Positions 4,534 through 22,271 of a stretch of DNA of 34,518 nt are shown here, piece by piece. The notes beneath the pieces are model-generated. The model was not told where the DNA came from and searched no databases. It was given only the letters and a program-made list of their open reading frames with translations. Within the stretch, counting starts at the first letter, position 1, and the number at the start of each line of letters is the position of its first letter. Location: the IMG/VR virus record IMGVR_UViG_3300009496_000029, positions 1 through 34,518 of that record; one strand, given 5' to 3'. Position numbers and translations under genes: made by a program. The stretch is from a virus.

Positions 4534-7500
4534 TTATGACTGCAATGTTGCAGGAGTTAGTGCCGATACTACGACAACATCAGATGTTGTGGCCGCATTG
4601 ACAAAAATTTCGTATGGTCTGCATTTAATTTCGTATAAGTCTCCAAATAGTTTTTCAGGATCATTTGATACTAGTACAGCAGAAGATATAAGTTCATTTG
4701 TTTTTTCATGTAAGTATGCACTTAATTCTGAGAAGAAGAATGTATCTCCAAAGTTCCAATAGTTAATACTAAAATAAGTATCCATAGCCGCAAGTACAGC
4801 ACTTCGTATTTCACTGTCACTTGCATTTGTTGTGCTAGATTTAATAACTTTAATAGTTGCTCTCAATGCTGGATCTGCTTTCGCTCCAAACAACGGTTTG
4901 AATGTTACACTATTTAATATGACTGAATCCGATAACATTTTAAAATCTTGTATTTTGCTATATGCAGTTTCTAGTTCATTCAACGTTGGTTGTTGTGGTT
5001 TTACAACTGTGTTCGTAGTATCATTAATCCAATTTGTATATGCAGTATAATATGCTTGAGTTACAAGATACAAATCAATAATGTTTGTAGTTGCTGGATC
5101 AATTCTAGTTGTGTTATTAGCATTATGTCTATACTGATAAGACAAGCCCTGTCTACCTTCTTTTACTGAGAAATCAAGTTGAGGAGTCAACACATAAAAA
5201 GGTGTTGTTACTGTAGGATCTTGTATTGTTTTGTAAAAGACATTATCAGTGTATGCATAGAATAATTGCCCAACTGGGAACTCATACTTAACAACTTCAA
5301 CTTGTGTCTTTGTTGCATAAGTGTAAATTATATCTGTGCTAGGAATAATTACTTGACGTGTCAAGTTAATAGGGTCTACAGTTGTTTGGAAGAATGTGTA
5401 GACACCAATGTTTGCACCATCGTTGACATAGCCTGTGATGTCATTAAAGAAGTCTGGGTTTAGAATTAATTGACCATTGTTAACATCAGTTGCCGCAACT
5501 TCAACTTGGAAGTCATTTACATAACCATCTGATTCAACAGTCTGTCCTAAGATATTAACTTTAGTATCTGCACCTAATGCTGTTGTAGAACCAAATGTTG
5601 TGTTGATACCTAACATGTTAATAAAGTCTTGTATAACTTTACCTGTAAAAGGATCATATACTAATTCATTCTTACTAAAAGTAAATCGTGTATCAGCAAC
5701 ACTGCCAAAGTAATAAGTAAGTGATCTGTATGTTATTGTATAACGATTGTTTCCTAAACTAGTAAACTTAACAAAGTAATTAGTTGCTGTAGGCGCGCCA
5801 ATTGACCAACGTTCTTGGTTGATCAATAATGAATTATTAAAGATTAAAGTAAAGTCTTGTTGTAATTCAATTTTAAGAATTGCTTCTTGTATTACAGGAG
5901 ATGATAAAGAATTATCAAAGACAGGAATAATTTCTGTCAGTGTAACACCGTCTGGGATATAACCATTTACGATAACAGGTCCTGTGCCGTTAGCAAATGT
6001 TCCTTGTCCAGTGTTTGATCCATCACCAACTATGTTTAATATAGTTGACCAGATATATGTCTTCTCGCCGCCTGTTGGGATACCTGCAACTAAACGATTA
6101 TTGCTATCAAAGTAAAAGCCAATTGGAGCAGATAGTTTTACTATTGATCCTTTTGTTACATACTTTGCATTAGATGTAGTAAATGTTCCTAACACTGCTG
6201 GAGTTTCTACTGAACTTGTTTCTGAGTAGAAGTATCCACTTTGTTGTGTTGAGTCAACCGAACTAGACTTCCAATATAATACTGGACTACCTGCATCTGG
6301 ATATGCATAACGTGTGTAGTTTTGAATGTAGTACTGATTAGCACGATTTAAGGCTAATACAGATGCTAAGTCATCAGTAAAGAATTGAATGATGTCACTT
6401 GTGTTTGTTACAGTTAAAGATAAGAAGCCATCAGTGCTGTCCTGATATAATGCTCCGTCATCTCCAAAAGAGTTTGAACTTGAATACTTGCCTGTTGGGT
6501 CAAGTAAGTCTAAGTTTTTAGAAACACCAATAGAACTTCTGTTAACTGCTTTAGATTTAATAATAGAGTTATAAAGAGTATAAGGGAAGTTTGTGTAATC
6601 TTCACCATTGACCATACGATTCTGTGTGTAGTATCTTGTAGGTGCTCTTTGTTTAATTTCAGAAATAGGCTCTCTTACTTGTGCTGTTGAGATTGTAGTA
6701 GGCAACTGTAAGTTTATAGTTAGTGTTTCTGTTGTTCCCTTTCTGCTAATGTATGATATAGCAACAGAGATGCCATTCATTTCAGAAGGACTGATTGAAT
6801 AAGTTAATGCGTTACTAGATCGTACATATGCTCTAAAGTTACCAATTGGTATCTCAGAGAAAACACCATCGCCAAATGTATATGAGACTTGATCGTTAAA
6901 TCTGGAGTCTACAGAGAATATAGTTCTGTCTGATGTTTCTGTTTGCAAGTATGCATCAGAGTATACATTTTCAACTTGTTTCCATGGAGTTGATGTGCCG
7001 TCTGTGTTACGTTTATATAACCATGTATCAGTATTATTAATACCAGTGATATTAATATCTTCTGATTGGTTTGATATTTTTTGTTGATAATTAAAATCGT
7101 AGTACTCTAATGTTCCTTGTTTAAAGTAGAACATGAAACCTGTGTTTGGTGAGCCAAAACCCAATCTATCATTTCTATATAATAAATTAAGTTTGCCGCT
7201 AGGTGCAGGTGGTATCTCATAGACATAATTAGAATCAAGTGATGTTCCACTAACTAGTTCAAAGTTCATAGATTGTCCGTCGATGACAGACGTAAAGGGA
7301 ACAATTGGTAAACTAGTTTCTGGTATTCTAATAGAATACTCACTAGTCTGTACATCTAAAATATCTGATGAGTTTGCTGGTCTACCAATGCGTTGCGTAT
7401 CAACTAAGGACGCATTGATAATAGTATTCATTTGCTCTAACCAGTTTTGATTAGAAGGATCGTTCCATAATACAGGAACATTGCTTAGATTAAGTCCATT

Positions 7501-7896
7501 GACATCAGTTAAATTTTCTGTTGTTCGTATGCCAGATATTTTTATAAAACCATTTGCACATGTGTTTCTTTTTGGTGTATAACTTACTAAGTTGGCTAAT
7601 TTAACAACTGAGTCTCTACGTTCAGCAGTATCAATAAAGTTCTCACGTGCGTTTAGATCGTTTCTGAACGCTAGTCCTTGTCCCATGAACGACATAACAT
7701 CAAGTAGAGCAATAAACTCTGAACTTTCTATGTAATCATTATATGTTTCAGGATAGTACAGACGTAGGTAATCGATCATACTCTTACGAAGTGTTTCGTA
7801 ATCATAACTTCTAAAGTCGGCTTCACGGAAAGTCTGGTAGATTGCCTTCCAGTCGTTTACTCCGAATAATCCTGATTGCCTTGAACTTGTAGCCAT
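4534..7896 (-). CDS. gp6: Baseplate wedge protein gp6 (enlarged)
   Basis: 1120 residues. The N-terminus (about residues 10-160, with DYETLRKSMIDYLRLYYPE and a LLDVMSFMGQGLAFRNDLNA segment) is the typical start of T4-type gp6, the wedge protein whose dimers form the inner ring of the baseplate. The C-terminal 150 residues (FKPLFGAKADPALRATIK, then YFSINYWNFGDTFFFSEL) match the baseplate J-like core of the family. T4 gp6 has about 660 residues, so this copy is much longer; the extra length lies mostly in a Thr/Ser/Asn-rich middle part (about 230-900). The gene follows gp25, as in many T4-like phages, across a 56-base gap holding a late-promoter-like GATAAATA. AGAGAGAGAT precedes the ATG. The identification is strong for both ends and inferred for the middle. 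Confidence 0.92.
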   Translation of the reverse strand: MATSSRQSGLFGVNDWKAIYQTFREADFRSYDYETLRKSMIDYLRLYYPETYNDYIESSEFIALLDVMSFMGQGLAFRNDLNARENFIDTAERRDSVVKLANLVSYTPKRNTCANGFIKISGIRTTENLTDVNGLNLSNVPVLWNDPSNQNWLEQMNTIINASLVDTQRIGRPANSSDILDVQTSEYSIRIPETSLPIVPFTSVIDGQSMNFELVSGTSLDSNYVYEIPPAPSGKLNLLYRNDRLGFGSPNTGFMFYFKQGTLEYYDFNYQQKISNQSEDINITGINNTDTWLYKRNTDGTSTPWKQVENVYSDAYLQTETSDRTIFSVDSRFNDQVSYTFGDGVFSEIPIGNFRAYVRSSNALTYSISPSEMNGISVAISYISRKGTTETLTINLQLPTTISTAQVREPISEIKQRAPTRYYTQNRMVNGEDYTNFPYTLYNSIIKSKAVNRSSIGVSKNLDLLDPTGKYSSSNSFGDDGALYQDSTDGFLSLTVTNTSDIIQFFTDDLASVLALNRANQYYIQNYTRYAYPDAGSPVLYWKSSSVDSTQQSGYFYSETSSVETPAVLGTFTTSNAKYVTKGSIVKLSAPIGFYFDSNNRLVAGIPTGGEKTYIWSTILNIVGDGSNTGQGTFANGTGPVIVNGYIPDGVTLTEIIPVFDNSLSSPVIQEAILKIELQQDFTLIFNNSLLINQERWSIGAPTATNYFVKFTSLGNNRYTITYRSLTYYFGSVADTRFTFSKNELVYDPFTGKVIQDFINMLGINTTFGSTTALGADTKVNILGQTVESDGYVNDFQVEVAATDVNNGQLILNPDFFNDITGYVNDGANIGVYTFFQTTVDPINLTRQVIIPSTDIIYTYATKTQVEVVKYEFPVGQLFYAYTDNVFYKTIQDPTVTTPFYVLTPQLDFSVKEGRQGLSYQYRHNANNTTRIDPATTNIIDLYLVTQAYYTAYTNWINDTTNTVVKPQQPTLNELETAYSKIQDFKMLSDSVILNSVTFKPLFGAKADPALRATIKVIKSSTTNASDSEIRSAVLAAMDTYFSINYWNFGDTFFFSELSAYLHEKTNELISSAVLVSNDPEKLFGDLYEIKCRPYEIFVNAATTSDVVVVSALTPATLQS

Positions 7897-7916
7897 ATAT
7901 CTCTCTCTGTTAGATA

Positions 7917-7924
7917 TATTTATC
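7917..7924 (-). promoter_or_regulatory. Late-promoter-like element GATAAATA before gp6
   Basis: Reads GATAAATA on the minus strand, one mismatch from the T4 late promoter TATAAATA recognised by gp55-RNA polymerase, 20 bases before the gp6 ATG in the gp25-gp6 gap. It is part of a longer block (7913-7937: CGGTTTTTA, four bases, GATAAATATATC) that recurs almost exactly upstream of gp48 at 16663-16688. The recurrence in two intergenic gaps in the same orientation relative to a late gene makes a promoter role likely. Confidence 0.6.
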
Positions 7925-7952
7925 TTTTTAAAAACCGGGTATTTTTAAGATG

Positions 7953-8408
7953 TTATTGGGTTACAATAGAGGCTGAGTTTGACTGATTATCGAAGAATAA
8001 ATTCAAATCTCCAGCATTATTAAAGGGTGTTACGGCTAATTCCATCTGTACTAGAATGCCATTTTCTCTTGTATATGCTCTGATTCTGTTCACATTGAGT
8101 CTAGGATCTTGTGCTACTACTCTTTGCAATTCATTTTCAAGTTGTTGAGTGACATCTCGTGTATTTGGATCAAATACAAAGTCCCAAAGTCTTGTTCCGT
8201 AGGCTGGTTGACCAACTTTCTCACCCTTACGAATGTTGAGAGCATTGACTAAATCCTGTATAACTAATTCTGCATCAGTTAACCTATACTTTTTGCCATA
8301 CACAAGCGGATTTTTAATTAAATCTCCAGTGTTGTCGATTCCACCGATTTCATTTACAGTTCTCGGCTTCTCTGCGTTTATTGTTGAAAATCCTACATAT
8401 GTTGGCAT
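7953..8408 (-). CDS. gp25: Baseplate wedge protein gp25
   Basis: 151 residues; T4 gp25 has 132. It carries the signature of the gp25/GPW family (Pfam GPW_gp25): about residues 58-95 read IRKGEKVGQPAYGTRLWDFVF, followed by an amphipathic helix and ARDPRLNV-like 'AQDPRLNVNRIRAY'. This small protein is a conserved sheath-initiating part of contractile tail baseplates. It lies between the Hint-domain gene and gp6. TATAAATA (8414-8421, minus strand) sits only 5 bases before the ATG, with AGGA just upstream of it, so either the AGGA is a distant ribosome site or the AT motif is fortuitous. The family assignment is firm. Confidence 0.93.
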   Translation of the reverse strand: MPTYVGFSTINAEKPRTVNEIGGIDNTGDLIKNPLVYGKKYRLTDAELVIQDLVNALNIRKGEKVGQPAYGTRLWDFVFDPNTRDVTQQLENELQRVVAQDPRLNVNRIRAYTRENGILVQMELAVTPFNNAGDLNLFFDNQSNSASIVTQ

Positions 8409-8413
8409 AATAC

Positions 8414-8421
8414 TATTTATA
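8414..8421 (-). promoter_or_regulatory. TATAAATA motif directly before gp25
   Basis: An exact copy of the T4 late promoter core on the minus strand, in the 15-base gap between the 691-aa gene and gp25. The spacing to the gp25 ATG (5 bases) would put a transcript start at or inside the first codons, so it may be fortuitous in an AT-rich gap, or may serve gp6 or a leaderless gp25 message. Confidence 0.3.
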
Positions 8422-8423
8422 TC

Positions 8424-10499
8424 CTATTTTTTATCGAATTGTAGTCCGTCAGTTGGCACTGAACCGATATTGTGATGAAGTACATAAGCATCAGATTGTT
8501 CGCCTGCCCAGAATGCATTATCTCCTGCATTAATAACAGCAACAAATTGTTCGTCTATACTTTCAACTGACACAACTTCGTCCCAGAATTCACCGTCAAC
8601 TGTCTTACATAGAATTTGTTTGTTTAACAAATCTGGTGCATCAACAAACTCTAACTCTTTTGTAAAGATTGGAGCAGTTGTAGAACACTTCAATGAAATG
8701 CCTTGAGATGTTTCTATGCGAACACATGGTTGTAATTCTACCATGTTAAACACAACTGTTCCAATATATGTATTTAGTTCGTCATCTGCTGTATTCAAAG
8801 AGATACTATTTCCTGGTTGCAACATGTAAGCCTGTTTAACTTCTTTGCCATTGAATGAAGCAGTTTCTACTAATGGTATATAACTTTCTAATACAACACA
8901 GCCTCCGCCGCCTCCCCCTGGAGGTGTTGGTGGTGGCAGATCAGGGCCAGCGACTGCTTCTACTGTATTTTCTTCAATCACTTCCTCAGGTGGTACTTGT
9001 ATAGGCGGATCTTCTTCCGGGGGATCAGGAATTTTTTCGCCACCAAACGTAAGTCCACTGTCATTGTTATCGCCAGTGCTGTCAGCAAATGTGTTGACTA
9101 CTACTCCGTTACCATAGTCTGCAAATGAGAAGTTTGTTTCACCAGATAATGCATTTTGATTCGTACTTGTTTGTGCGGTGACAGACACTTGACCATTCTC
9201 TAATCCAGCGTTTGATGCTATTGTCTGAGATGCAATTAATTCTGCTAAGTCATCTGCAGGATTAGGTGGTGGTGTTGGTAAAACTACTGGCTTGCCAGGA
9301 ACATAGTCTTCTTTAAACTCAAATCCAATATCAGACATTGTTTTATAAAGTTTTCCTGCCCCAATCTGTTTAGCAGTAACTTCTAATCGTAACTGTGCAA
9401 TTCTTGCTAGTTCTTGTGCTATTCTAGGATCACTTGGATCTGGGAATTCTATTGACAAGTCTGGCGGATTACCATATGCATTAATTTGTCTTTCTAAGTA
9501 TGCAATATCATCAAGTGTTTTTTCATATTCTTTTTCTGCTTGATTAAAATTAAATTGATTACGAGAAAGATCAAGTGCCTGATTACGTAAATCAGATAGA
9601 GGGCCACCAAATGAACCAGTCGGCAGAGTGGATCCTATAATAGTAGGCCTTGGTATAATAGGGTTGCCTAATACTTGATCAATTTGCTTTGTTATACCAG
9701 AACGATCAAATGTATTAAATGCAACAGTTGGTAATTTGATTGTTGATCCACCGCCTGTTGTTAAAGATGATAAAGCAGATTGTAGTTGTGCTTGTACACC
9801 TGAAGGCAAACCACTTAGTAATTTGTTTGTCAGACCGCCGCCTGATGGGTCTAAACCACCTGCTATCGCATCTGGAAGAGCACCTGAAGGAAATGGATTT
9901 GAGGCTCCTTTAAATGCTTTTTCTGCCAAATCTACTGCGACTGTACTAACATCACTTAGTCCAGGAGCGGCAAGATTTTGTGCACCAGAAAGATTGTTTA
10001 CAATTGCTGTTGCTGTTCTTGCTCCGCCTGGTAATCCACCTAAACCACTTGCAATAGAAGCGGCCTCAGCCGCTTGTGATCCTGACCCTATTAACTTTGC
10101 TACACCAGGCAGTTTTCCTTGTTGTGCTAATTGACTAATACTTCCGCCACCGGCATTTGAACTATTTTTTATATTCTGAATTTGTCGTGTTAATTCTGCT
10201 GTAGTACCTGTATTTTTTTGTGCAACCATCAGAGTTATTTCATTTAATGATTTTATTTCTGTTAGGTTTTGTGGGACATTAGCCGTCATTGGTACAAAAG
10301 ATTTTTTAATAGCGGCAAATCCTGCGGCTGATACTCCTCGTGATAGAGACACGGCATCTTCATAGCCAGGCACTTGTGATATAGAATTTAATGCTTTTGC
10401 TACACCACCAGTTGCTCCAGTTGTTGTAGAGGCAAGTAAGGAGGCACTACTTCCCTGATTAATTTTGTTGTATATATCCTGTTTAGTGAACCTAGGCAT
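8424..10499 (-). CDS. Baseplate-associated protein with C-terminal Hint-like (intein/hedgehog-type) domain
   Basis: 691 residues, between the gp5 spike gene and gp25. Residues 1-300 are rich in Gly, Ser and Ala. About 305-405 look like a coiled coil (NFNQAEKEYEKTLDDIAYLERQ). Then comes a Pro-rich linker ending in six Gly at about 528-533. From Cys534 to Asn677 the sequence reads like a Hint domain: Cys534 directly after the Gly run, a TSQGISLKCSTTAPI segment (about 597-611) where block B (TPxHP) should be, and a final YVLHHN (His676-Asn677), the classical His-Asn end of self-splicing or self-cleaving Hint domains. Only 14 residues follow. The block-B His is Ala609. A good GGGAG ribosome site lies before the ATG. 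The protein is probably a tail/hub component; whether it self-cleaves is open. The Hint call rests on motifs seen, not on a search. Confidence 0.65.
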   Translation of the reverse strand: MPRFTKQDIYNKINQGSSASLLASTTTGATGGVAKALNSISQVPGYEDAVSLSRGVSAAGFAAIKKSFVPMTANVPQNLTEIKSLNEITLMVAQKNTGTTAELTRQIQNIKNSSNAGGGSISQLAQQGKLPGVAKLIGSGSQAAEAASIASGLGGLPGGARTATAIVNNLSGAQNLAAPGLSDVSTVAVDLAEKAFKGASNPFPSGALPDAIAGGLDPSGGGLTNKLLSGLPSGVQAQLQSALSSLTTGGGSTIKLPTVAFNTFDRSGITKQIDQVLGNPIIPRPTIIGSTLPTGSFGGPLSDLRNQALDLSRNQFNFNQAEKEYEKTLDDIAYLERQINAYGNPPDLSIEFPDPSDPRIAQELARIAQLRLEVTAKQIGAGKLYKTMSDIGFEFKEDYVPGKPVVLPTPPPNPADDLAELIASQTIASNAGLENGQVSVTAQTSTNQNALSGETNFSFADYGNGVVVNTFADSTGDNNDSGLTFGGEKIPDPPEEDPPIQVPPEEVIEENTVEAVAGPDLPPPTPPGGGGGGCVVLESYIPLVETASFNGKEVKQAYMLQPGNSISLNTADDELNTYIGTVVFNMVELQPCVRIETSQGISLKCSTTAPIFTKELEFVDAPDLLNKQILCKTVDGEFWDEVVSVESIDEQFVAVINAGDNAFWAGEQSDAYVLHHNIGSVPTDGLQFDKK

Positions 10500-10528
10500 T
10501 GAGAGACTCCCAAATGGTAGTATAATTA

Positions 10529-12646
10529 TTAAATATCAACATTTCGCTCTGACTCCTGCATTATGAACATTGTATTAGCAATTGATTCTGTTAACGTATT
10601 GCCTGCGGATTGACCAGCATTGACAATTCCTGACAATGAATTTGACGCTTCCTTGCCTGTAATTACCCCTGATTGAGTCAACAATGTTTGTGATTTTTGT
10701 AGATTAGTTGTAACAGACTGTGCTTGTGCTGTGTTCGATGCTACTAATTTATCTAATGATGATGCACCAAACTTTCCAGTAAACGCTGATGTTGGCATTG
10801 ATTTTTGTACTGACCTTAAAGCCGTAGTATCTGAAATTAATGTATTAACCATTGTGTCGGCGCCTGGTTTAAGCACTCCGCCTTGTACTAACTGACTTGG
10901 GCTTTGACCGAATGCGCCAACTAATATTTCTCTAGGTTGACTAGTCCCTGCTCCACCTATAATCGCACTTCCAGTTGTCAATGGATTGGCGGCATTTACA
11001 GGGTTATTGTCTGCTACAGTTTTAGCAGTGTCAATCGCTATACTTGCAAGTATTGCAGTTGATGTGTTTTTATCTATTGCTTTACTAGAATTTGGCACTT
11101 CAGGTATCGATGCGGCCGATGCATTAGAAACACCTTGAGCACCTGTTCCTTCAACTGCACCTGCTTTATTCGTGGCAGCCAATCTAGTACTAGGACTTGC
11201 AGGCAATGCATCATCTGCATCTAATTTAATTTCAACATCAACTCCCTGTCCGGCCGCTAACCACGGTGCATGAGCAGGTGCCCTTGATGTAATACTTAAG
11301 AGTTTGCCCGGTGCCGCTGACCAACCTGTTTGTTTATCAAACAATGTTTCTGGGTGTGCTATTAGTGTTGGTGGTTCAACAACATCAGGTGCTACTGGAC
11401 TAGAACCAGAATTAAGGTTTACTTTACTACCTTCAACAAATGTTTCTGCTGAACTTTTAATAGAAGCGGCCGCTGTAGATTCTAATGCTACACTTTTGTC
11501 TGCTTTAATTAATACACTAGAAAGAGAATATAATTTATAATCTGTACCTGCTCTTTGTGTTGTTTCTTTTTCTGAATTAAGTTTTAAATTCTCTGTAGCA
11601 TTAATACTAATTTCTTTACCGTGAAGATTTAAGTTATTATCTGCATGTAAGTTAAGATCGCCTTGTGTACGTAAATTAATTGAGTTAGCTCCATAGATGT
11701 CAACTGTTCCTTCTTTGCCTAATTCAATATATGATTGTCCATTAGAATGTAAGATCATTAATACTTGACCGTCATCACTCATTAAGATTTGATGGCCTAA
11801 TGCTGTACGCAATCTAATTAATTGATCTCTACCAACGATGTCTCCATCGTCCATAACGATTGAATGTCCGCCACGTCTTGCTACAACTTGTAATGTTTCT
11901 GGCTTTTCTGTGTTTAAGTTTGATGCAATATCTTCGTCTGTGAAACCACCTGAATAGATAGGTCTGCCTGGACTACTCACACCCCAACCTACTCTACTTA
12001 TAGATTCTCTAGTAGCACTTGAACTGATAGGGCCTCTGATTCTATCTCGTAATATACCTTGTTGTTGCATGATAGCCGCTGTGTAACTATGAACAGGCTT
12101 AGGCTGATTTAAGTAATCGTTTCCATCTGCGGCATTTTTGTCATTTGTGTTCATGCTAGTAACTGGCAGTACAGAAGCTCCACCATAAGATTGTGCCTCG
12201 CCTTCGTTTGGAACAATATTATCTGATGAACCAATTGCAGGAACCATATTCATATATTCAGGTCGAGCAACCATACCAAGATAGAAGCCATAGTTAGGGT
12301 CACCGTTGACAAAAACAACAAGTACTTCTGATCCTATATCAGGAGGAGAGTTCCATTGTCCATATGCACTTGGATTACTCGTATACGTGCCTGTACCATT
12401 ATTGTCTGCTTGTCCTTCAACATGACCAAAGAAACTACTAAGTCTGTTAACTGTTATCCATGAGTCACTGCCTGTTGCATCTTGTTTAAAAGAGTCACTG
12501 GGAAATACTTCTAATCTGCCGGCGTTAGTAGGGTCGATATTACTCATCACAGTACATAGCATTGCAGTTTCATTAACTGCGGCTATACCTGCTCCTGGTT
12601 TATTCTTTTTTAATTGTCCCCTAGGTTTCCATGTATTACGTGGCAT
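10529..12646 (-). CDS. gp5: Baseplate spike protein gp5-like (OB-fold plus beta-helix, no lysozyme domain)
   Basis: 705 residues. The N-terminus (about 25-135) is the gp5 OB-fold: 'VMSNIDPTNAGRLEVFPSD', then PPDIGSEVLVVFVNGDPNYGFYLG. About 255-420 show repetitive short beta strands ending in a row of hydrophilic repeats (INLRTQGDLNLHADNNLNLH, then ISINATENLKLN), as in the triple-stranded beta-helix needle of gp5. Between them no lysozyme domain with its Glu-Asp-Thr catalytic set is seen, unlike T4 gp5 but like many marine T4-like phages. The last 280 residues are Ala/Ser/Thr-rich and low in complexity. The protein should form the central membrane-puncturing spike below the hub. Its ATG overlaps the stop of the preceding gene in TAATG, which points to translational coupling. 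Confidence 0.88.
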   Translation of the reverse strand: MPRNTWKPRGQLKKNKPGAGIAAVNETAMLCTVMSNIDPTNAGRLEVFPSDSFKQDATGSDSWITVNRLSSFFGHVEGQADNNGTGTYTSNPSAYGQWNSPPDIGSEVLVVFVNGDPNYGFYLGMVARPEYMNMVPAIGSSDNIVPNEGEAQSYGGASVLPVTSMNTNDKNAADGNDYLNQPKPVHSYTAAIMQQQGILRDRIRGPISSSATRESISRVGWGVSSPGRPIYSGGFTDEDIASNLNTEKPETLQVVARRGGHSIVMDDGDIVGRDQLIRLRTALGHQILMSDDGQVLMILHSNGQSYIELGKEGTVDIYGANSINLRTQGDLNLHADNNLNLHGKEISINATENLKLNSEKETTQRAGTDYKLYSLSSVLIKADKSVALESTAAASIKSSAETFVEGSKVNLNSGSSPVAPDVVEPPTLIAHPETLFDKQTGWSAAPGKLLSITSRAPAHAPWLAAGQGVDVEIKLDADDALPASPSTRLAATNKAGAVEGTGAQGVSNASAASIPEVPNSSKAIDKNTSTAILASIAIDTAKTVADNNPVNAANPLTTGSAIIGGAGTSQPREILVGAFGQSPSQLVQGGVLKPGADTMVNTLISDTTALRSVQKSMPTSAFTGKFGASSLDKLVASNTAQAQSVTTNLQKSQTLLTQSGVITGKEASNSLSGIVNAGQSAGNTLTESIANTMFIMQESERNVDI

Positions 12647-14853: not shown

Positions 14854-15167
14854 TATATTCCAAGTACTCTACGTAATGTGTCTAGCCTAGGCACAAATAT
14901 TGTTATACCTGCTGTAAAATTAAAATAAGGATCTGGTCCCAATTGATTAGGGTTTCTAGCCGCAAATACCCACCACAGTTTAGGATCTTCATATAAATGT
15001 TGTGCTAGTAAGTCAGGTCTAAATTCGTACTGCATAGTAACAACGAATGTAGCATCTCCTGGATCTCTAGGTATAGGTCTGTTTTTCATAACATCTAAGA
15101 ATTCTTTATCAAAGACTCCTGTTTGAAAATAAGGACTTGTTCTAGGATATAAACTATTGTTAGCCAT
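14853..15167 (-). CDS. gp53: Baseplate wedge protein gp53
   Basis: 104 residues from the ATG at 15167, which overlaps the gp48 stop in TAATG. A TTG two codons further upstream is less likely because the neighbouring genes use the same TAATG coupling. The core 'RPDLLAQHLYEDPKLWWVFAARNPNQ' followed by DPYFNFTAGITIFVP is the typical gp53 motif (LysM-like end with FxxGxxIxVP). T4 gp53 has about 196 residues, and the short form is usual in marine T4-like phages. In T4 gp53 bridges neighbouring baseplate wedges around the hub. The next gene starts inside its stop codon. Confidence 0.88.
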   Translation of the reverse strand: MANNSLYPRTSPYFQTGVFDKEFLDVMKNRPIPRDPGDATFVVTMQYEFRPDLLAQHLYEDPKLWWVFAARNPNQLGPDPYFNFTAGITIFVPRLDTLRRVLGI

Positions 15168-16600
15168 TACCAAATACCTCCACCTGGGCGTTTGCTACCC
15201 TGATTAAGTTTTCCTTGTGCGTATTCAGAAAGACTGAATTTAGAACTGATCTGATTTCTGCTAATAATCGGAATACATTGAATCGACATAGTTATTTTTG
15301 TAGGCACATATGTAATCTCATCTGATATAGCAGTTTGAAAGTTTGGCGGTGGTGCGCCTCCACCTGGTGTGAGTTGTCCACCTACTAGATTGGGTGCGGC
15401 TGTCGTATCATCTGATGAGTTAGTTGCTTTAATATAGTCAACATCTGCTGGTAAATTATAAGTAAAATTTGTTATTGCTAACGGGTGTCCTTCAAACTGA
15501 AATGCTCCCATACCATATAAGAACGCTAACGGGGGAGGAGTTCCATTCTTAGGACTCTCGTCTTGTCCATAAAACATTTTAGTCATTGATCTGAAGAAGT
15601 GAATACATGCTAGTAGATAATTTGCTTCTTTCGTGTCTTGTGCTGTGAAAGTACAGCCAATCGTTACTGTATCGACTGAACTAGCTGTGTATTGATTGAT
15701 TTTAAAATTCGAATGCACAGGTGATGTACTATCATATGAGGCCGCATACGTAACATTAACTGTAGGCGTGTACGGAAATATAACTCCATCTGTATCTATC
15801 AGCGGGGCTAAAATGCCAGCCCCAGCAGGATTTTTATACAAATATTCTGACCGTGGACCCAAACTAAGTCTGACTCTCCAATCGTTGCCTCCAGGTGCTG
15901 ACCCTTCTGCTGATGTGAGTTCGGACACTTCTGCTGGTGTTATACTTACTCCACTACCTGCAGTAGTTCCAGTGCCAACATCAGCTCCTGTTTCGGCATC
16001 AGCATTTTCTTCTTGTGTTGCAGGTGTATCTGTATCTGGGACTGCTGGTGGAGTTTCTACTGGTACTGGTACTGCTTCAGGCTCATCAGGTGCGGGTGTA
16101 TCTGTATCTGGAACTGTTGGTGGAGTTTCTACTGGTTCTGGTACTGCTTCAGGCTCATCAGGTGCGGGTGTATCTGTATCTGGAACAGTTGGTGGAGTTT
16201 CTACTGGTTCTGGTACTGCTTCAGGCTCATCGGCGGTCGGTTCTTCAGCAACTACTTCAGGTTCTGTCCTCTGAGCGGCTAGGTTTGCTTCTATTTTTGC
16301 TTGTCTACATGCTTCGGTTGCGGCGAATACAGCATTTACTCGATCTATTACATCTTGCTTGGACTTTGGCCCCGAAGTGCTGTTTGCGTTAACCAGGCCG
16401 ACGAGGTATGCGTTTGTGGCCAGTAATTTTCTACCAAACAACTTTCCGTTGATTCTGATTTGACCGACGGCTTCTCCTTCTAAATTATCAGCCTTTTTGA
16501 GGGTAGATTCAATATGGATACTGGCACCACCGAGACTAGTGAAGTCTTCGTAATAATAACACTCTGTACCGTTGCCATCCGGATACTGTTGTATCGGCAT
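15167..16600 (-). CDS. gp48: Baseplate tail-tube cap protein gp48-like with Pro/Glu/Asp-rich repeats
   Basis: 477 residues, first gene of the minus-strand baseplate operon. Residues 1-100 form one conserved part (YYYEDFTSLGGASIHIES). Residues 118-235 are a low-complexity Pro/Glu/Thr/Asp linker holding three 24-residue repeats. The C-terminal part (about 238-477) has RVRLSLGPRSEYLYK, GVIFPYTPTVNVTYAASYD, a DTVTIGCTFTAQDTKEANYLL stretch and HFFRSMTKMFYGQD, a pattern I recognise from marine T4-like proteins annotated gp48, the baseplate-tail tube junction (cap) protein. An AGGA lies 8 bases before the ATG. The order gp48-gp53-hub-gp5 supports a central baseplate role. The exact number gp48 rather than gp54 is less certain than the family. 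Confidence 0.72.
   Translation of the reverse strand: MPIQQYPDGNGTECYYYEDFTSLGGASIHIESTLKKADNLEGEAVGQIRINGKLFGRKLLATNAYLVGLVNANSTSGPKSKQDVIDRVNAVFAATEACRQAKIEANLAAQRTEPEVVAEEPTADEPEAVPEPVETPPTVPDTDTPAPDEPEAVPEPVETPPTVPDTDTPAPDEPEAVPVPVETPPAVPDTDTPATQEENADAETGADVGTGTTAGSGVSITPAEVSELTSAEGSAPGGNDWRVRLSLGPRSEYLYKNPAGAGILAPLIDTDGVIFPYTPTVNVTYAASYDSTSPVHSNFKINQYTASSVDTVTIGCTFTAQDTKEANYLLACIHFFRSMTKMFYGQDESPKNGTPPPLAFLYGMGAFQFEGHPLAITNFTYNLPADVDYIKATNSSDDTTAAPNLVGGQLTPGGGAPPPNFQTAISDEITYVPTKITMSIQCIPIISRNQISSKFSLSEYAQGKLNQGSKRPGGGIW
16023..16238 (-). repeat. Three tandem 72-bp repeats inside gp48
   Basis: The unit starting GGTGTATCTGTATCTGG on the plus strand recurs at 16023, 16095 and 16167, a period of exactly 72 bases. 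It encodes, on the minus strand, three 24-residue units containing VETPPTVPDTDTPAPDEPEA. The copies differ at only a few positions, and the last one decays at its end near 16231. The multiple-of-three period keeps the frame. The repeats form a flexible acidic linker between two folded parts of gp48. Confidence 0.93.
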
Positions 16601-17795: not shown

Positions 17796-18812
17796 ATGAC
17801 AAATCTTTTTAAGAAGGCCGCAGTCTTTACGGACATACATTTCGGCTTAAAAAGTAATAGTTTACAACACAATGAAGATTGTAAAAACTTTGTTGATTGG
17901 TTTATTGAGAAATCACTAGCAGAAGGCTGTGAGACTTGTTTCTTTTTGGGAGACTGGAATCATCATCGTGCCTCAATCAACATGCATACTTTACAGTACG
18001 GCTTGAATGCGTTAGAGAAACTTAATGATGCATTTGAGAAAGTCTACTTCATTACAGGTAACCACGATCTTTATTACAGAGACAAACGAGACATTCACTC
18101 AGTTGAGTGGGCAAAGCATCTTAAGAACGTAGTTGTAGTCGATCACTTTGTTGAAGAAGGCGATTGTGTTATTGCTCCATGGTTATGTGGTGATGATTAT
18201 AAACTGCTCAAACAAAAGAAAGGCAAATATCTTTTTGCTCACTTAGAACTCCCTCACTTCTACATGAATGCTATGATAGAAATGCCTGATCATGGTGAGG
18301 CAAACACTGATCACTTAGGACACTTTGATAAAGTATTCACTGGACATTTTCACAAACGTCAAGCAAGAAAGAATGTTTGGTATATGGGCAATGCATTCCC
18401 GCATAACTATGCAGATGCAGGTGATGATGCTAGAGGTATGATGGTACTAGAATGGGATAAAGAACCCGAGTTTCATTCATGGCCTGATCAACCTGTATAT
18501 AGAGTTTACAAACTAAGTGAAGTATTAGAGAACCCAAAAGGTTTATTAATTAAAAATGCTCATGTTCGGGTACACTTAGATATTGATATCTCGTATGAAG
18601 AATCTAATTACATTAGAGAACAGTTAATACCAGAGTATGGCCTAAGAGAAATGTCATTGCTTCCAGTTAAGAACGAGGAACATTCACAAGACTTAGCACC
18701 AGGTGAGATATCGTTTGAGAGTGTGGATAACATTATCATTGATCAAATTAAAAACATAGAATCAGAATTTTATGACAAAAGTATACTGCTAGGAATCTAT
18801 CAGTCTATATGA
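17796..18812 (+). CDS. gp47: Recombination endonuclease subunit gp47 (SbcD/Mre11-like)
   Basis: 338 residues from the ATG at 17796, the start chosen because GGATGG lies just upstream; an in-frame ATG at 17787 would add three residues but lacks a ribosome site. The calcineurin-like phosphodiesterase motifs are in order: FTDIHFG (Asp13, His15), LGDWNHH (Asp53), TGNHD (Asn89, His90), FAHLE (His149) and GHFHKR (His184, His186). T4 gp47 has 339 residues. With gp46 it forms the Mre11/Rad50-type complex that trims DNA ends for recombination-dependent replication. It is the first gene of an operon; its stop overlaps the next start in ATGA. All metal-binding residues appear intact. Confidence 0.95.
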   Translation: MTNLFKKAAVFTDIHFGLKSNSLQHNEDCKNFVDWFIEKSLAEGCETCFFLGDWNHHRASINMHTLQYGLNALEKLNDAFEKVYFITGNHDLYYRDKRDIHSVEWAKHLKNVVVVDHFVEEGDCVIAPWLCGDDYKLLKQKKGKYLFAHLELPHFYMNAMIEMPDHGEANTDHLGHFDKVFTGHFHKRQARKNVWYMGNAFPHNYADAGDDARGMMVLEWDKEPEFHSWPDQPVYRVYKLSEVLENPKGLLIKNAHVRVHLDIDISYEESNYIREQLIPEYGLREMSLLPVKNEEHSQDLAPGEISFESVDNIIIDQIKNIESEFYDKSILLGIYQSI

Positions 18813-19486
18813 TCCATTACCGACATCTGGGTTATCCGAAATCTGGCACCAACTGGCTTTGGTCGCAATTCATGGAACATCCAGAGGTAGATGGTAAGTT
18901 AAGTACGCATTACAAAGAGTTTGATGGTACATCGTTAGAACATTATCAGAATACATATAACAAGTTCAAGGTATCTGTCAACTTACACACTCACATATTC
19001 AATGGCGACTATGTTGAAGGACATTATGCCACGCCTAAAGAAATACATAATCATGCTACACATCTTGGTCTAAGTTTCCGAAATCCATATGAAGTTTTAA
19101 ATTCATTATACAATATGGAAAAGAATCGAAATCCTAACTTTAAAGACACACCCGATCAGTATACCAAATTAGTTGCTAACACAAAGATATACATGTATAC
19201 TGATACAAAGAAGATTTTTAATTACTGGGAAGACTGCAAGTTACCTATAAATTATACATTTTATGATGATTTGTGTGCTGACCCAAAACAATACATGTAT
19301 GATTTATGTGATTATATTGGAATTGGTAAATTTTATAATGGTAATATGAACAGGAAGTTTCAAACTACAATGAACAATCCACTCGTGTTTGACGATACAA
19401 GTGCAATACAATTTATTAACGAAGGTATATCTATTATCGAAGATCACACTAAACGTGATCTATCTTCATGGAAAAGGGCAACTTAA
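18809..19486 (+). CDS. Sulfotransferase-like protein inserted between gp47 and gp46
   Basis: 225 residues. The N-terminus reads HLGYPKSGTNWLWSQF (Pro10-Lys11-Ser12-Gly13-Thr14), the 5'-phosphosulfate-binding loop of PAPS-dependent sulfotransferases (usually PKSGTTWL). LSFRNPYEVLNSLY (about 88-101) matches the 3'-phosphate-binding motif, with Arg91 and Ser99 eight residues apart, the spacing seen in classical enzymes. The protein is about 50 residues shorter than typical cytosolic sulfotransferases, and no signal peptide is seen. The likely role is sulfation of a small molecule, glycan or protein; the acceptor is unknown. Its ATG overlaps the gp47 stop (ATGA), and gp46 begins 6 bases after its stop, so it is translated within the recombination operon. 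A non-sulfotransferase P-loop fold member cannot be excluded. Confidence 0.72.
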   Translation: MIHYRHLGYPKSGTNWLWSQFMEHPEVDGKLSTHYKEFDGTSLEHYQNTYNKFKVSVNLHTHIFNGDYVEGHYATPKEIHNHATHLGLSFRNPYEVLNSLYNMEKNRNPNFKDTPDQYTKLVANTKIYMYTDTKKIFNYWEDCKLPINYTFYDDLCADPKQYMYDLCDYIGIGKFYNGNMNRKFQTTMNNPLVFDDTSAIQFINEGISIIEDHTKRDLSSWKRAT

Positions 19487-19491
19487 TAACA

Positions 19492-21258
19492 ATGATTACT
19501 CTTAAAAATATAACACTAAGAAATTTCTTAAGTGTTGGTTCTGTAACTCAAGCAGTTAACTTAGATAACCAAGAACTTACTCTTATCTTAGGTGACAATT
19601 TAGACTTGGGTGGTGATGGTGCTAGAAATGGTACTGGCAAGACTACTCTTATTCAAGCAGTTAGTTATGCATTGTATGGTACTGCTCTTAATAACATTAA
19701 AGCAAACAATCTAATCAACAGAACAAACGGCAAAGGCTGTTTAGTTACATTAGAGTTTGAAGCCAATGGTGTTGAGTATCGTATTGAACGTGGTCGTAAG
19801 CCAAATCTATTACGATTCTTTATCAATGGCACAGAAGAAGATGATAACGAAGCACAAGGCGAAAACAAACAAACACAAATAACTATAGAACAAGTTATTG
19901 GTATGTCTCCTACGATGTTTAGAAACATTGTAGCACTTAATACGTACAATTTACCTTTCTTGGCTATGCCTGTAGGGCAACAACGTGATATCATTGAGCA
20001 GTTATTGGGTATTACTTTATTATCAGAAAAAGCAGAGAAGATAAAAGTAATAATCAAAAAGAACAAAGAAGATTTACAAGCAGAAGACTTTAAGATCAAG
20101 GCTATAGAAGAAGCAAACAAACGTGTACTAGAACAAATCGAGTCTCTTAAGAAGAGAGCAAGACTGTGGGACGCAAAGACAGCAGAAGACATCAATACAT
20201 TAAAGAGCAGAGTCAAAACCCTACAAGAACTAGATATCGAAGCAGAATTAACCAATCACGCAGAACTTGCTCTTTATAAACAACGTAAGTCTGCTCATGC
20301 TGATGTAGACTCACAGATACAACGTGCCTTTAGTGATGTTGAAAGAGAGTCTAAGATAATTACTAAGTTAGAAAAAGAACTTAAGGTGTTACAAACTAAC
20401 AAGTGTCACACATGTGGACAAGACTTCCATGATGATTTGCATACTCAAGTATTAACAGATAAAGAAACGTCAGTCAAAGACTCGACCGAACGTGTAGAAG
20501 AATTGGCTGAGTTATGTGTAGAGTTTGAGAAAGCAAAAGAACTGTTAGGGGTAGTCGGTGACAAGCCTATTGTCTTTTACAACAGTGAACAAGAAGCAAT
20601 TGAGCATAGAAGCAAGGTAGAAGGCTTGGTCTCTCAAATAGACAGCAAAGAATTAGATGAAAATCCATACACCGAACAAATTAGTGAAATGGAAAGTCAA
20701 GCAATACAAGAACAAGACTTTGACAGAGTTAACGAATTATCACGTCTAGGAGATCATCAGAAGTTCTTGTTAGACTTGTTAACAAGTAAAGACTCCTTTG
20801 TTCGTAAAAAGATTATTGATCAGAACTTATCTTACTTAAACTCTAGGCTAACAAATTACTTAGACAAGATGGGTCTACCTCATCAAGTTGTGTTCCAAAA
20901 CGATTTAACTGTAGAGATTACAGAATTGGGTAGAGAACTAGACTTTGATAACTTATCTAGGGGAGAACGTAACAGATTAATCTTAGGATTGTCATTTGCA
21001 TTCAGAGATGTATGGGAGAACTTATATGCTCCTATCAACACAATCTTTATCGATGAGTTAATTGACTCAGGCTTAGATACTATAGGTGTAGAGAATGCTA
21101 TGGGTATTCTTAAATCAAAATCTAGGCAGAATGGTAAATCAATTTGGTTAGTGTCACACAGAGAAGAACTAGCAGGACGTGTCCCAAGTGTATTACAAGT
21201 AGTTAAAGAGAACGGATTTACTACATACAACACATCAAGGGAAATGGAAAATCTGTGA
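19492..21258 (+). CDS. gp46: Recombination endonuclease subunit gp46 (SbcC/Rad50-like)
   Basis: 588 residues from the ATG at 19492 (MITLKNITLRNF), which fits family N-termini; an ATG 24 bases upstream lies inside the preceding gene and has no ribosome site. Walker A is GARNGTGKTT (43-52). A coiled coil follows (about 175-430) with the zinc hook CHTC (Cys305, Cys308) at its apex. The C-terminal ATPase half has the signature LSRGER (488-493), Walker B IFIDE (Asp521, Glu522), a D-loop SGLD and His556. T4 gp46 has 560 residues. It drives the gp47 nuclease in DNA end processing and is required for recombination-dependent replication. The stop overlaps the next gene's GTG start. Confidence 0.95.
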   Translation: MITLKNITLRNFLSVGSVTQAVNLDNQELTLILGDNLDLGGDGARNGTGKTTLIQAVSYALYGTALNNIKANNLINRTNGKGCLVTLEFEANGVEYRIERGRKPNLLRFFINGTEEDDNEAQGENKQTQITIEQVIGMSPTMFRNIVALNTYNLPFLAMPVGQQRDIIEQLLGITLLSEKAEKIKVIIKKNKEDLQAEDFKIKAIEEANKRVLEQIESLKKRARLWDAKTAEDINTLKSRVKTLQELDIEAELTNHAELALYKQRKSAHADVDSQIQRAFSDVERESKIITKLEKELKVLQTNKCHTCGQDFHDDLHTQVLTDKETSVKDSTERVEELAELCVEFEKAKELLGVVGDKPIVFYNSEQEAIEHRSKVEGLVSQIDSKELDENPYTEQISEMESQAIQEQDFDRVNELSRLGDHQKFLLDLLTSKDSFVRKKIIDQNLSYLNSRLTNYLDKMGLPHQVVFQNDLTVEITELGRELDFDNLSRGERNRLILGLSFAFRDVWENLYAPINTIFIDELIDSGLDTIGVENAMGILKSKSRQNGKSIWLVSHREELAGRVPSVLQVVKENGFTTYNTSREMENL

Positions 21259-22271
21259 GTCTCGCTCTTTGGCATTGGCATATAGAAGTTAGCAGTAAAT
21301 GCACCCTCAAGTGCCCTAGATGCCCTCGACAAGAGGTTCCTGACACACTAGTCAACACTGAACTTGAGTTGGCATTCTTTACTCGTAATTTTCCACCTGA
21401 TTTTATTACAGAACATGTAGAAAAACTAACATTCTGTGGAGATGATGGCGATCCTATATATGCACGTGACTTTCTACATATTATTAAGTATTTCAAGTCA
21501 GTTAAAAATGACATTGCCATTGTCATTGTGACAAATGGCTCTTATAAGAATGAGGGCTGGTGGAAAGAACTAGCAAGTTTACTTGGGCCCATGGATCAAA
21601 TACACTTTAGTATCGATGGTTGGGACCATGATAGTAACAATGTCTATAGAATCAATTCTAATTGGTCTAGCATCGTTACAGGTGCTTCTATCATCAACGA
21701 TGAGTCAACATGTTACACAGTGTGGGACGCAATAGGCTTCAAGTTTAATGAAGACAAGATAGAAGACATGAAAAACTATGCAAAAGAATTAGGCTTTGAT
21801 GCATTTCAGTTAACCAAGAGTACTAAGTTTGGAAAGATATACGAAGATTCTTATGGGAAAGATGATGCTTTACAACCAAGTGATAATCTGTTATCATCTA
21901 GCCATAGATTTGAAAGAGATGTAACTAAACTAACAGACAAGTTCTTATTAGAACCCTGGATGAAGACAAACATCAGATTGTTTGAGCAAGTTCATATAGT
22001 AGGCAATGAAAAGCCATTATGTCATATAGGCAACAAAGGAACTTATATCAATGCTAAGGGAGAGTTTTATCCCTGCTGTTGGGTCGCAACAAGATACGGA
22101 CACAATAACAAATGGAATGATTTAGGTCAGAAATATAACTTACATGAAAGTAATTTAACCGAAATCATCAAAGACAATTTTTGGAAAACCGAGTTTATAC
22201 ATGGCTCTTACGAATGTCAAACAAAATGCAATGCAAAAATTGTCAATAAAAATTATGCCACCGAGTGGTAA
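21255..22271 (+). CDS. Radical SAM enzyme with SPASM/twitch-like C-terminus
   Basis: 338 residues starting at GTG, which overlaps the gp46 stop (GTGA). The CX3CX2C cluster of radical SAM enzymes is Cys16-Cys20-Cys23 in SSKCTLKCPRCPRQ. The glycine motif is altered to FCGDDGDPIY (60-69). The C-terminal part has Cys256, Cys274-Cys275, Cys321 and Cys325, with CHIGNKGTYINAKGEFYPCCW resembling the auxiliary iron-sulfur region of SPASM or twitch domains. Such enzymes often modify peptides or proteins, or mature cofactors. The substrate cannot be told, and no precursor peptide gene is evident next door. The placement between gp46 and a resolvase-like nuclease is by co-transcription and need not mean a DNA role. 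The radical SAM fold is secure; the function is unknown. Confidence 0.85.
   Translation: MSLALWHWHIEVSSKCTLKCPRCPRQEVPDTLVNTELELAFFTRNFPPDFITEHVEKLTFCGDDGDPIYARDFLHIIKYFKSVKNDIAIVIVTNGSYKNEGWWKELASLLGPMDQIHFSIDGWDHDSNNVYRINSNWSSIVTGASIINDESTCYTVWDAIGFKFNEDKIEDMKNYAKELGFDAFQLTKSTKFGKIYEDSYGKDDALQPSDNLLSSSHRFERDVTKLTDKFLLEPWMKTNIRLFEQVHIVGNEKPLCHIGNKGTYINAKGEFYPCCWVATRYGHNNKWNDLGQKYNLHESNLTEIIKDNFWKTEFIHGSYECQTKCNAKIVNKNYATEW

Follow-up and report, generated by a model that had tools for sequence, protein, structure and literature searches.

The Hint domains closest to the one described here are those of class 1 mini-inteins (Ssp DnaB, Npu DnaB, and gp41-1), A-type BILs, BIL2 from the BUBL1 protein of Tetrahymena, and Hedgehog. 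In inteins, the assisting residues are Thr at B:7, His at B:10, the residues at F:4 and F:13, and His at G:6 (PMC4031507). The block-B histidine (B:10) is the most conserved residue of inteins: a 2014 review listed two inteins without it, and one of these is a pseudogene (PMC4031507). A-type BILs lie in the variable parts of proteins that are themselves not conserved (PMC7765530), and BILs that lack a +1 nucleophile mostly cleave (PMC7664689, PMC4031507). BIL2, which occurs with ubiquitin-like domains, forms an isopeptide bond with a lysine (PMC8616854). The phage Hint domains in the reports that we found are inteins of terminases, helicases, and reductases. In the openly accessible papers that we searched, no phage tail or baseplate protein is described as ending in a Hint domain. 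Here we describe such a family, which was previously unnamed.

We analyzed a stretch of 34,518 nucleotides that makes up a viral record in IMG/VR (IMGVR_UViG_3300009496_000029), and we call this stretch the window. The features in this paragraph, and in the next the gp5-, gp25-, and gp6-like genes and the promoter-like element, are on the minus strand. The domain lies in an open reading frame of 691 amino acids (8424..10499). (An initial annotation of this DNA had the lower bound right but placed the upper bound at 10018, which truncates the N terminus.) Residues 1-527 (8919..10499) are rich in alanine, glycine, and proline; they match no PHROG or Pfam family in profile scans and have zero matches among 50,697 phage records. 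When we checked this region for a ubiquitin-like flank of the BUBL type, the AlphaFold2 model (mean pLDDT of 39) had no confident fold, with a single helical stretch at 316-395. Next come a linker of six glycines (Gly528-Gly533; 8901..8918), directly ahead of the first residue of the Hint domain, and the domain itself (Cys534-Asn677, 144 amino acids; 8469..8900), which ends with the block G residues His675-His676-Asn677 (8469..8477). The protein closes with a tail of 14 residues, IGSVPTDGLQFDKK (8427..8468), which begins with Ile678, ends in Lys-Lys, and is hypervariable between phages. Block B is CSTTAPI (residues 605-611; 8667..8687), with Ala609 (8673-8675) at the B:10 position. These landmarks, and the replacement of the block-B histidine by alanine, are as the initial annotation described them.

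The gene is flanked by components of the baseplate, so the earlier description of its product as hub-adjacent holds. On one side is a gp5-like baseplate hub protein (10529..12646; phrog_13211, E = 2.9e-38; in synteny with GAP32 and PA5oct). On the other side are the element TATAAATA (8414..8421), which we take to resemble the T4 late promoter consensus, a gp25-like baseplate wedge protein (7953..8408; phrog_43, E = 3.3e-9), and a gp6-like baseplate wedge protein (4534..7896; phrog_10646, E = 7.8e-250). This is the gene order of the T4-like jumbo phages GAP32 and PA5oct, which also have homologues of gp55, gp47, and gp46 beyond the block of baseplate genes. In the window, a sulfotransferase-domain protein (18809-19486; PF00685, E = 1.2e-7) is encoded between the gp47- and gp46-like recombination genes, and a Radical-SAM-like protein (21255-22271; PF04055, E = 2.3e-6, just short of the Pfam cut-off) adjoins the gp46-like gene. 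Another virion protein gene (15167-16600) contains three direct repeats of 72 nucleotides (16019-16234; 90-94% identical) that encode a Pro/Glu-rich linker repeat. In many relatives (L024, L026, L098, and L102-L124), gp5 and the 691-residue region form one open reading frame of 1000-1500 amino acids, so the Hint domain here closes a split hub protein, whose end has become a gene of its own. (Within 8424-12646, the two open reading frames are separated by 29 bases and do not share a frame.)

The C-terminal domain almost certainly has a Hint fold, as judged from structure prediction. Given a 33-sequence alignment, AlphaFold2 predicted a Hint fold with a pLDDT of 87.5 and a pTM of 0.83, and the fold takes in the final 158 residues of the protein. 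A Foldseek search with this model gave 53 matches in the PDB with E < 0.001, and the best 50 of the 53 are inteins, BIL domains, or Hedgehog. The first match is BIL2 of BUBL1 (6y75, 6tmm; E = 2.6e-7). In VIA comparisons, the model superimposed on the Ssp DnaB intein (1mi8; Z = 19.6, rmsd 2.1 over 136 residues), Hedgehog (1at0; Z = 17.9, rmsd 2.0 over 132 residues), and a Clostridium BIL (2lwy; Z = 16.7, rmsd 2.1 over 132 residues). So the initial proposal of a Hint domain is borne out by both the model and the structural matches. Similarly, a sequence profile built from seven relatives matched four sequences in all of the PDB, all of them inteins (best E = 0.00085), and these matches place block B on CSTTAPI. 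Inteins led again with a second family profile, which also hit adenovirus penton chains at E of about 0.4; we set these aside as chance matches. Profile scans assigned no Pfam, NCBIfam, or PHROG family to the domain or to 33 relatives. (Weak matches to Pectate_lyase_4 and DUF7242 were limited to single members or fell under the cut-offs.) BFVD contains several similar, uncharacterised viral models.

We then examined conservation. We collected 60 loci from a first scan of IMG/VR and more from a later scan, along with nine phage records and five bacterial contigs. (Two of the nine phage records, with E of 0.5, are matches to Achromobacter rIIB and are probably due to chance.) This gave 66 distinct domain sequences, from IMG/VR, from phages of Xanthomonadaceae, and from a few bacteria. 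In a HMMER alignment of 155 columns, just five hold the same residue in every sequence, namely Cys1, Val2, the block-B serine, the G:6 histidine, and the G:7 asparagine. Four of these five are catalytic positions named for inteins (PMC4031507). Because all 66 domains share Cys1, the block-B serine, and the final His-Asn, the Hint-like motif is not due to chance. In particular, Cys534 is Cys1 and is never replaced; the initial annotation had named a non-conserved Cys534 among the observations that would count against it. The domains are also under purifying selection: dN is well under dS in most pairs (for instance, 0.062 versus 0.55 for L028/L030).

Block B is unusual throughout the family. 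B:7 (Ser606 in the window's protein) is serine in 66 of 66 domains, and B:10 is alanine in 62, threonine in 4, and histidine in none. HMMER aligns CSTTAPI with CSEEHLFPT of gp41-1 and TPTHPFFT of PhoCDC21-1. A caveat is that some of the scan patterns took in block B and favored alanine or threonine there, so the absence of relatives with the histidine is partly ascertainment; no pattern specified Cys1 or the final His-Asn. A tblastn search of phage records, which used no pattern, again found only alanine or threonine at B:10. The F:4 aspartate and the F:13 histidine also appear to be missing, judging from alignments read by eye. As a second nucleophile we considered the B:6 cysteine (of CSTTAP) but rejected it: gp41-1 has a cysteine there too, and XacN1, LucasX, and L085 have valine or alanine. 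Just before the domain, the -1 residue is glycine in 51 of 63 domains, and Gly-Gly occurs among the 10 residues preceding Cys1 in 53 of 63. Just after it, the +1 residue is mostly Val, Leu, Ala, Ile, or Met; serine or threonine is found in just 3 of 63 relatives.

These features set the family apart from each of the described systems. Like class 1 mini-inteins, its members have the fold, Cys1, and the His-Asn end seen in most inteins (and block B of gp41-1 also opens with Cys-Ser, as CSEEH), but they lack the B:10 histidine and a +1 Cys/Ser/Thr, and they do not interrupt the middle of an essential enzyme. The Tko CDC21-1 intein, which naturally lacks the block-B histidine, is similar in keeping the splice-site residues; it differs in that Lys58, outside the motifs, compensates and in having a bulky Leu at -1, where our family mostly has glycine (PMC4031507, PMC6333167). 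We found no conserved counterpart of the compensating lysine in the family. Hedgehog shares the fold and has its Hint domain C-terminal to its cargo, but it relies on the N-S shift alone and attaches cholesterol, whereas our family has an invariant His-Asn. No sterol-recognition region follows the domain: 14 residues follow HHN in the window's protein, and 4-26 do in most relatives. A-type BILs, such as that of Clostridium thermocellum (2lwy), share with the family the fold, the N-terminal cysteine, the C-terminal His-Asn, the lack of a +1 nucleophile, and the location in variable parts of proteins that are not conserved. Unlike A-type BILs, the family has no block-B histidine, sits near the C terminus of phage tail or baseplate proteins, mostly with a tail of 4-26 amino acids, and has sequences that fall outside Pfam, NCBIfam, and PHROGs. 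Because the block-B catalytic histidine is missing, we call the domain BIL-like rather than an A-type BIL.

Our main reading is that this is a histidine-less, A-type-BIL-like, self-processing Hint domain that is exchanged among phage tail and baseplate proteins; we put its probability at about 0.58, with the catalysis inferred from conserved residues. The domain would process itself once, after folding. Asn677 would cyclise with the help of His676 and so free the short tail, and/or Cys534 would attack the carbonyl of Gly533 to give a polyglycine thioester, which water or an amine would resolve. The outcome would be cleavage (a hub protein ending in polyglycine, with the Hint domain released) or ligation to an amine. 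We favor these outcomes over ordinary splicing because there is no Cys/Ser/Thr at +1. Ordinary splicing is unlikely, as the initial annotation had argued from Ile678. Asparagine cyclisation at the C-terminal end is the best-preserved step of the predicted chemistry. The N-terminal half is weaker: in the Ssp DnaB intein, changing the block-B histidine to alanine (H73A) with glycine at -1 abolished the N-S acyl shift, and only bulkier -1 residues rescued it (PMC6333167). By analogy, an N-S acyl shift by our domain is doubtful.

The family-wide loss of the B:10 histidine, together with a -1 residue that is mostly glycine, is evidence against self-processing, and it leads to the main rival: the fold may be catalytically dead and act as a stable cap at the C terminus, or as a binding module, with the hypervariable tail as the part on display. 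The combination that is inert in Ssp DnaB is what this idea predicts. If the domain were purely structural, however, we would not expect Cys1, the B:7 serine, the G:6 histidine, and the G:7 asparagine to be invariant in 66 domains on very different carriers. There is no obvious structural reason to keep a cysteine beside a floppy glycine linker. Since nothing except catalysis readily explains the invariant Cys1, we favor a BIL-like reaction, cleavage or ligation, that is slow or regulated, and we consider a dead fold unlikely, although it deserves serious weight. Overall, the pattern of conserved residues suggests that the domain probably cuts itself, and it may link proteins covalently.

The domain is an exchangeable C-terminal module of virion proteins, bounded by Cys1 and the asparagine. 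It mostly sits behind a glycine linker, at the C terminus of tail and baseplate proteins that are unrelated to each other: the hub/691 protein, a KQSPLG-type protein with no PHROG, VrlC-like proteins (phrog_358), and phrog_15511 proteins. Phage isolates with the domain include DLP_6, LucasX, XacN1, and PhiXhv. (The main text of the XacN1 virion proteomics study does not mention ORF231.) The carriers have close orthologues without the Hint domain, and alleles of the same protein with and without it coexist (L193 and L195, for example). In some pairs of loci, the DNA of the domain is 95-100% identical and the similarity is gone from the first base past the asparagine codon; in several of these pairs, it is also gone upstream of Cys1, except for the glycine codons. 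Because similarity ends at those boundaries, the conserved unit is the interval that corresponds to an intein. Among 28 pairs with at least 93% identity in the domain, the tails are under 50% identical in 6 and the N-terminal flanks are under 60% identical in 6. Identical domains can bear unrelated tails, and L006 and L007 share 210 identical upstream bases and a 99.5% identical domain but have different tails. By eye, the tails vary in length and at all bases, and we rejected a diversity-generating retroelement as their origin. Hypervariable tails and modular swapping recall adhesin tips, and the tail is swapped, not lost; both points fit the dead-fold reading.

Some contigs have other arrangements. 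In jumbo-phage contigs L015, L057, L058, L060, and L019, adjacent genes each have the domain, and in the first four of these the second copy lies between Cys-rich segments (CxxC...C before it, CCYC...PPNCC or similar after it). In L071, a bacterial member (5623-9447), a long RHS-repeat-like region follows the Hint domain instead of a short tail.

The hub gene, where the tail abuts TATAAATA, bears on whether the flanks could be joined. L111, which lacks the domain, ends with GGGNLTWYYDDLSLEWKKK, and L006, which has it, ends with LHHN-IAWHDDLSLEWKKK; their final ten residues and the downstream promoter element are identical. Hub orthologues without the domain end in a Gly-rich linker and a similar short tail. 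These ends would fit A-type BIL splicing, in which asparagine cyclisation frees the amino group of the tail and that group attacks the polyglycine thioester, to leave a mature end of polyglycine and tail; ligation without a +1 nucleophile has been described for A-type BILs (PMC4031507). But this route requires the N-S acyl shift without the B:10 histidine. Also, since L111 and L006 share both their last ten residues and TATAAATA, recombination at the end of the hub gene is likely, and recombination across the promoter can explain the identity of the tails. Alleles of the KQSPLG carrier without the domain have no such tail. We consider this kind of splicing highly unlikely. Similarly, simple insertion of an intein into an existing C terminus fits the hub family (L006 versus L111) but fails for the KQSPLG family.

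Finally, the tails have one feature in common. Among the distinct domains, 58 have tails of up to 30 amino acids, and each of these tails contains at least one lysine. When each 55%-identity cluster is represented by a single sequence, 16 of 16 tails have lysine (P = 8e-8 versus the C termini of other open reading frames of the same length), in a test that was post hoc. The lysine may be at +1, at +2, or near the end, and the terminal Lys-Lys in the window's group could belong to the shared gene end. A lysine of the tail or of a neighboring virion protein might attack the thioester at Gly533 and so cross-link or tag the baseplate. Cross-linking is a testable reading because of the isopeptide chemistry of BIL2 (the closest Foldseek match; PMC8616854), the polyglycine end, and the lysine in every short tail. 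But BIL2 retains and uses its block-B histidine (His69) and has ubiquitin-like flanks, and isopeptide chemistry in our family is putative, with a lysine whose position is not fixed. We view such conjugation as very unlikely. The broader picture drawn from this analogy, of a histidine-less family that would transfer polyglycine thioesters to lysines, cross-link or tag the baseplate without ATP, and be shuffled as a cassette among virion genes, is speculative and rather improbable.

The family is of interest because all of it lacks the block-B histidine yet retains the terminal catalytic residues, in tail and baseplate proteins of phages. If the domain is active, it would represent another route for Hint chemistry and a new kind of baseplate processing or cross-linking, and it might provide compact tags for cleavage or ligation. 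If it is dead, it would be a clear example of a self-cutting domain that was reused as a building block of the virion.
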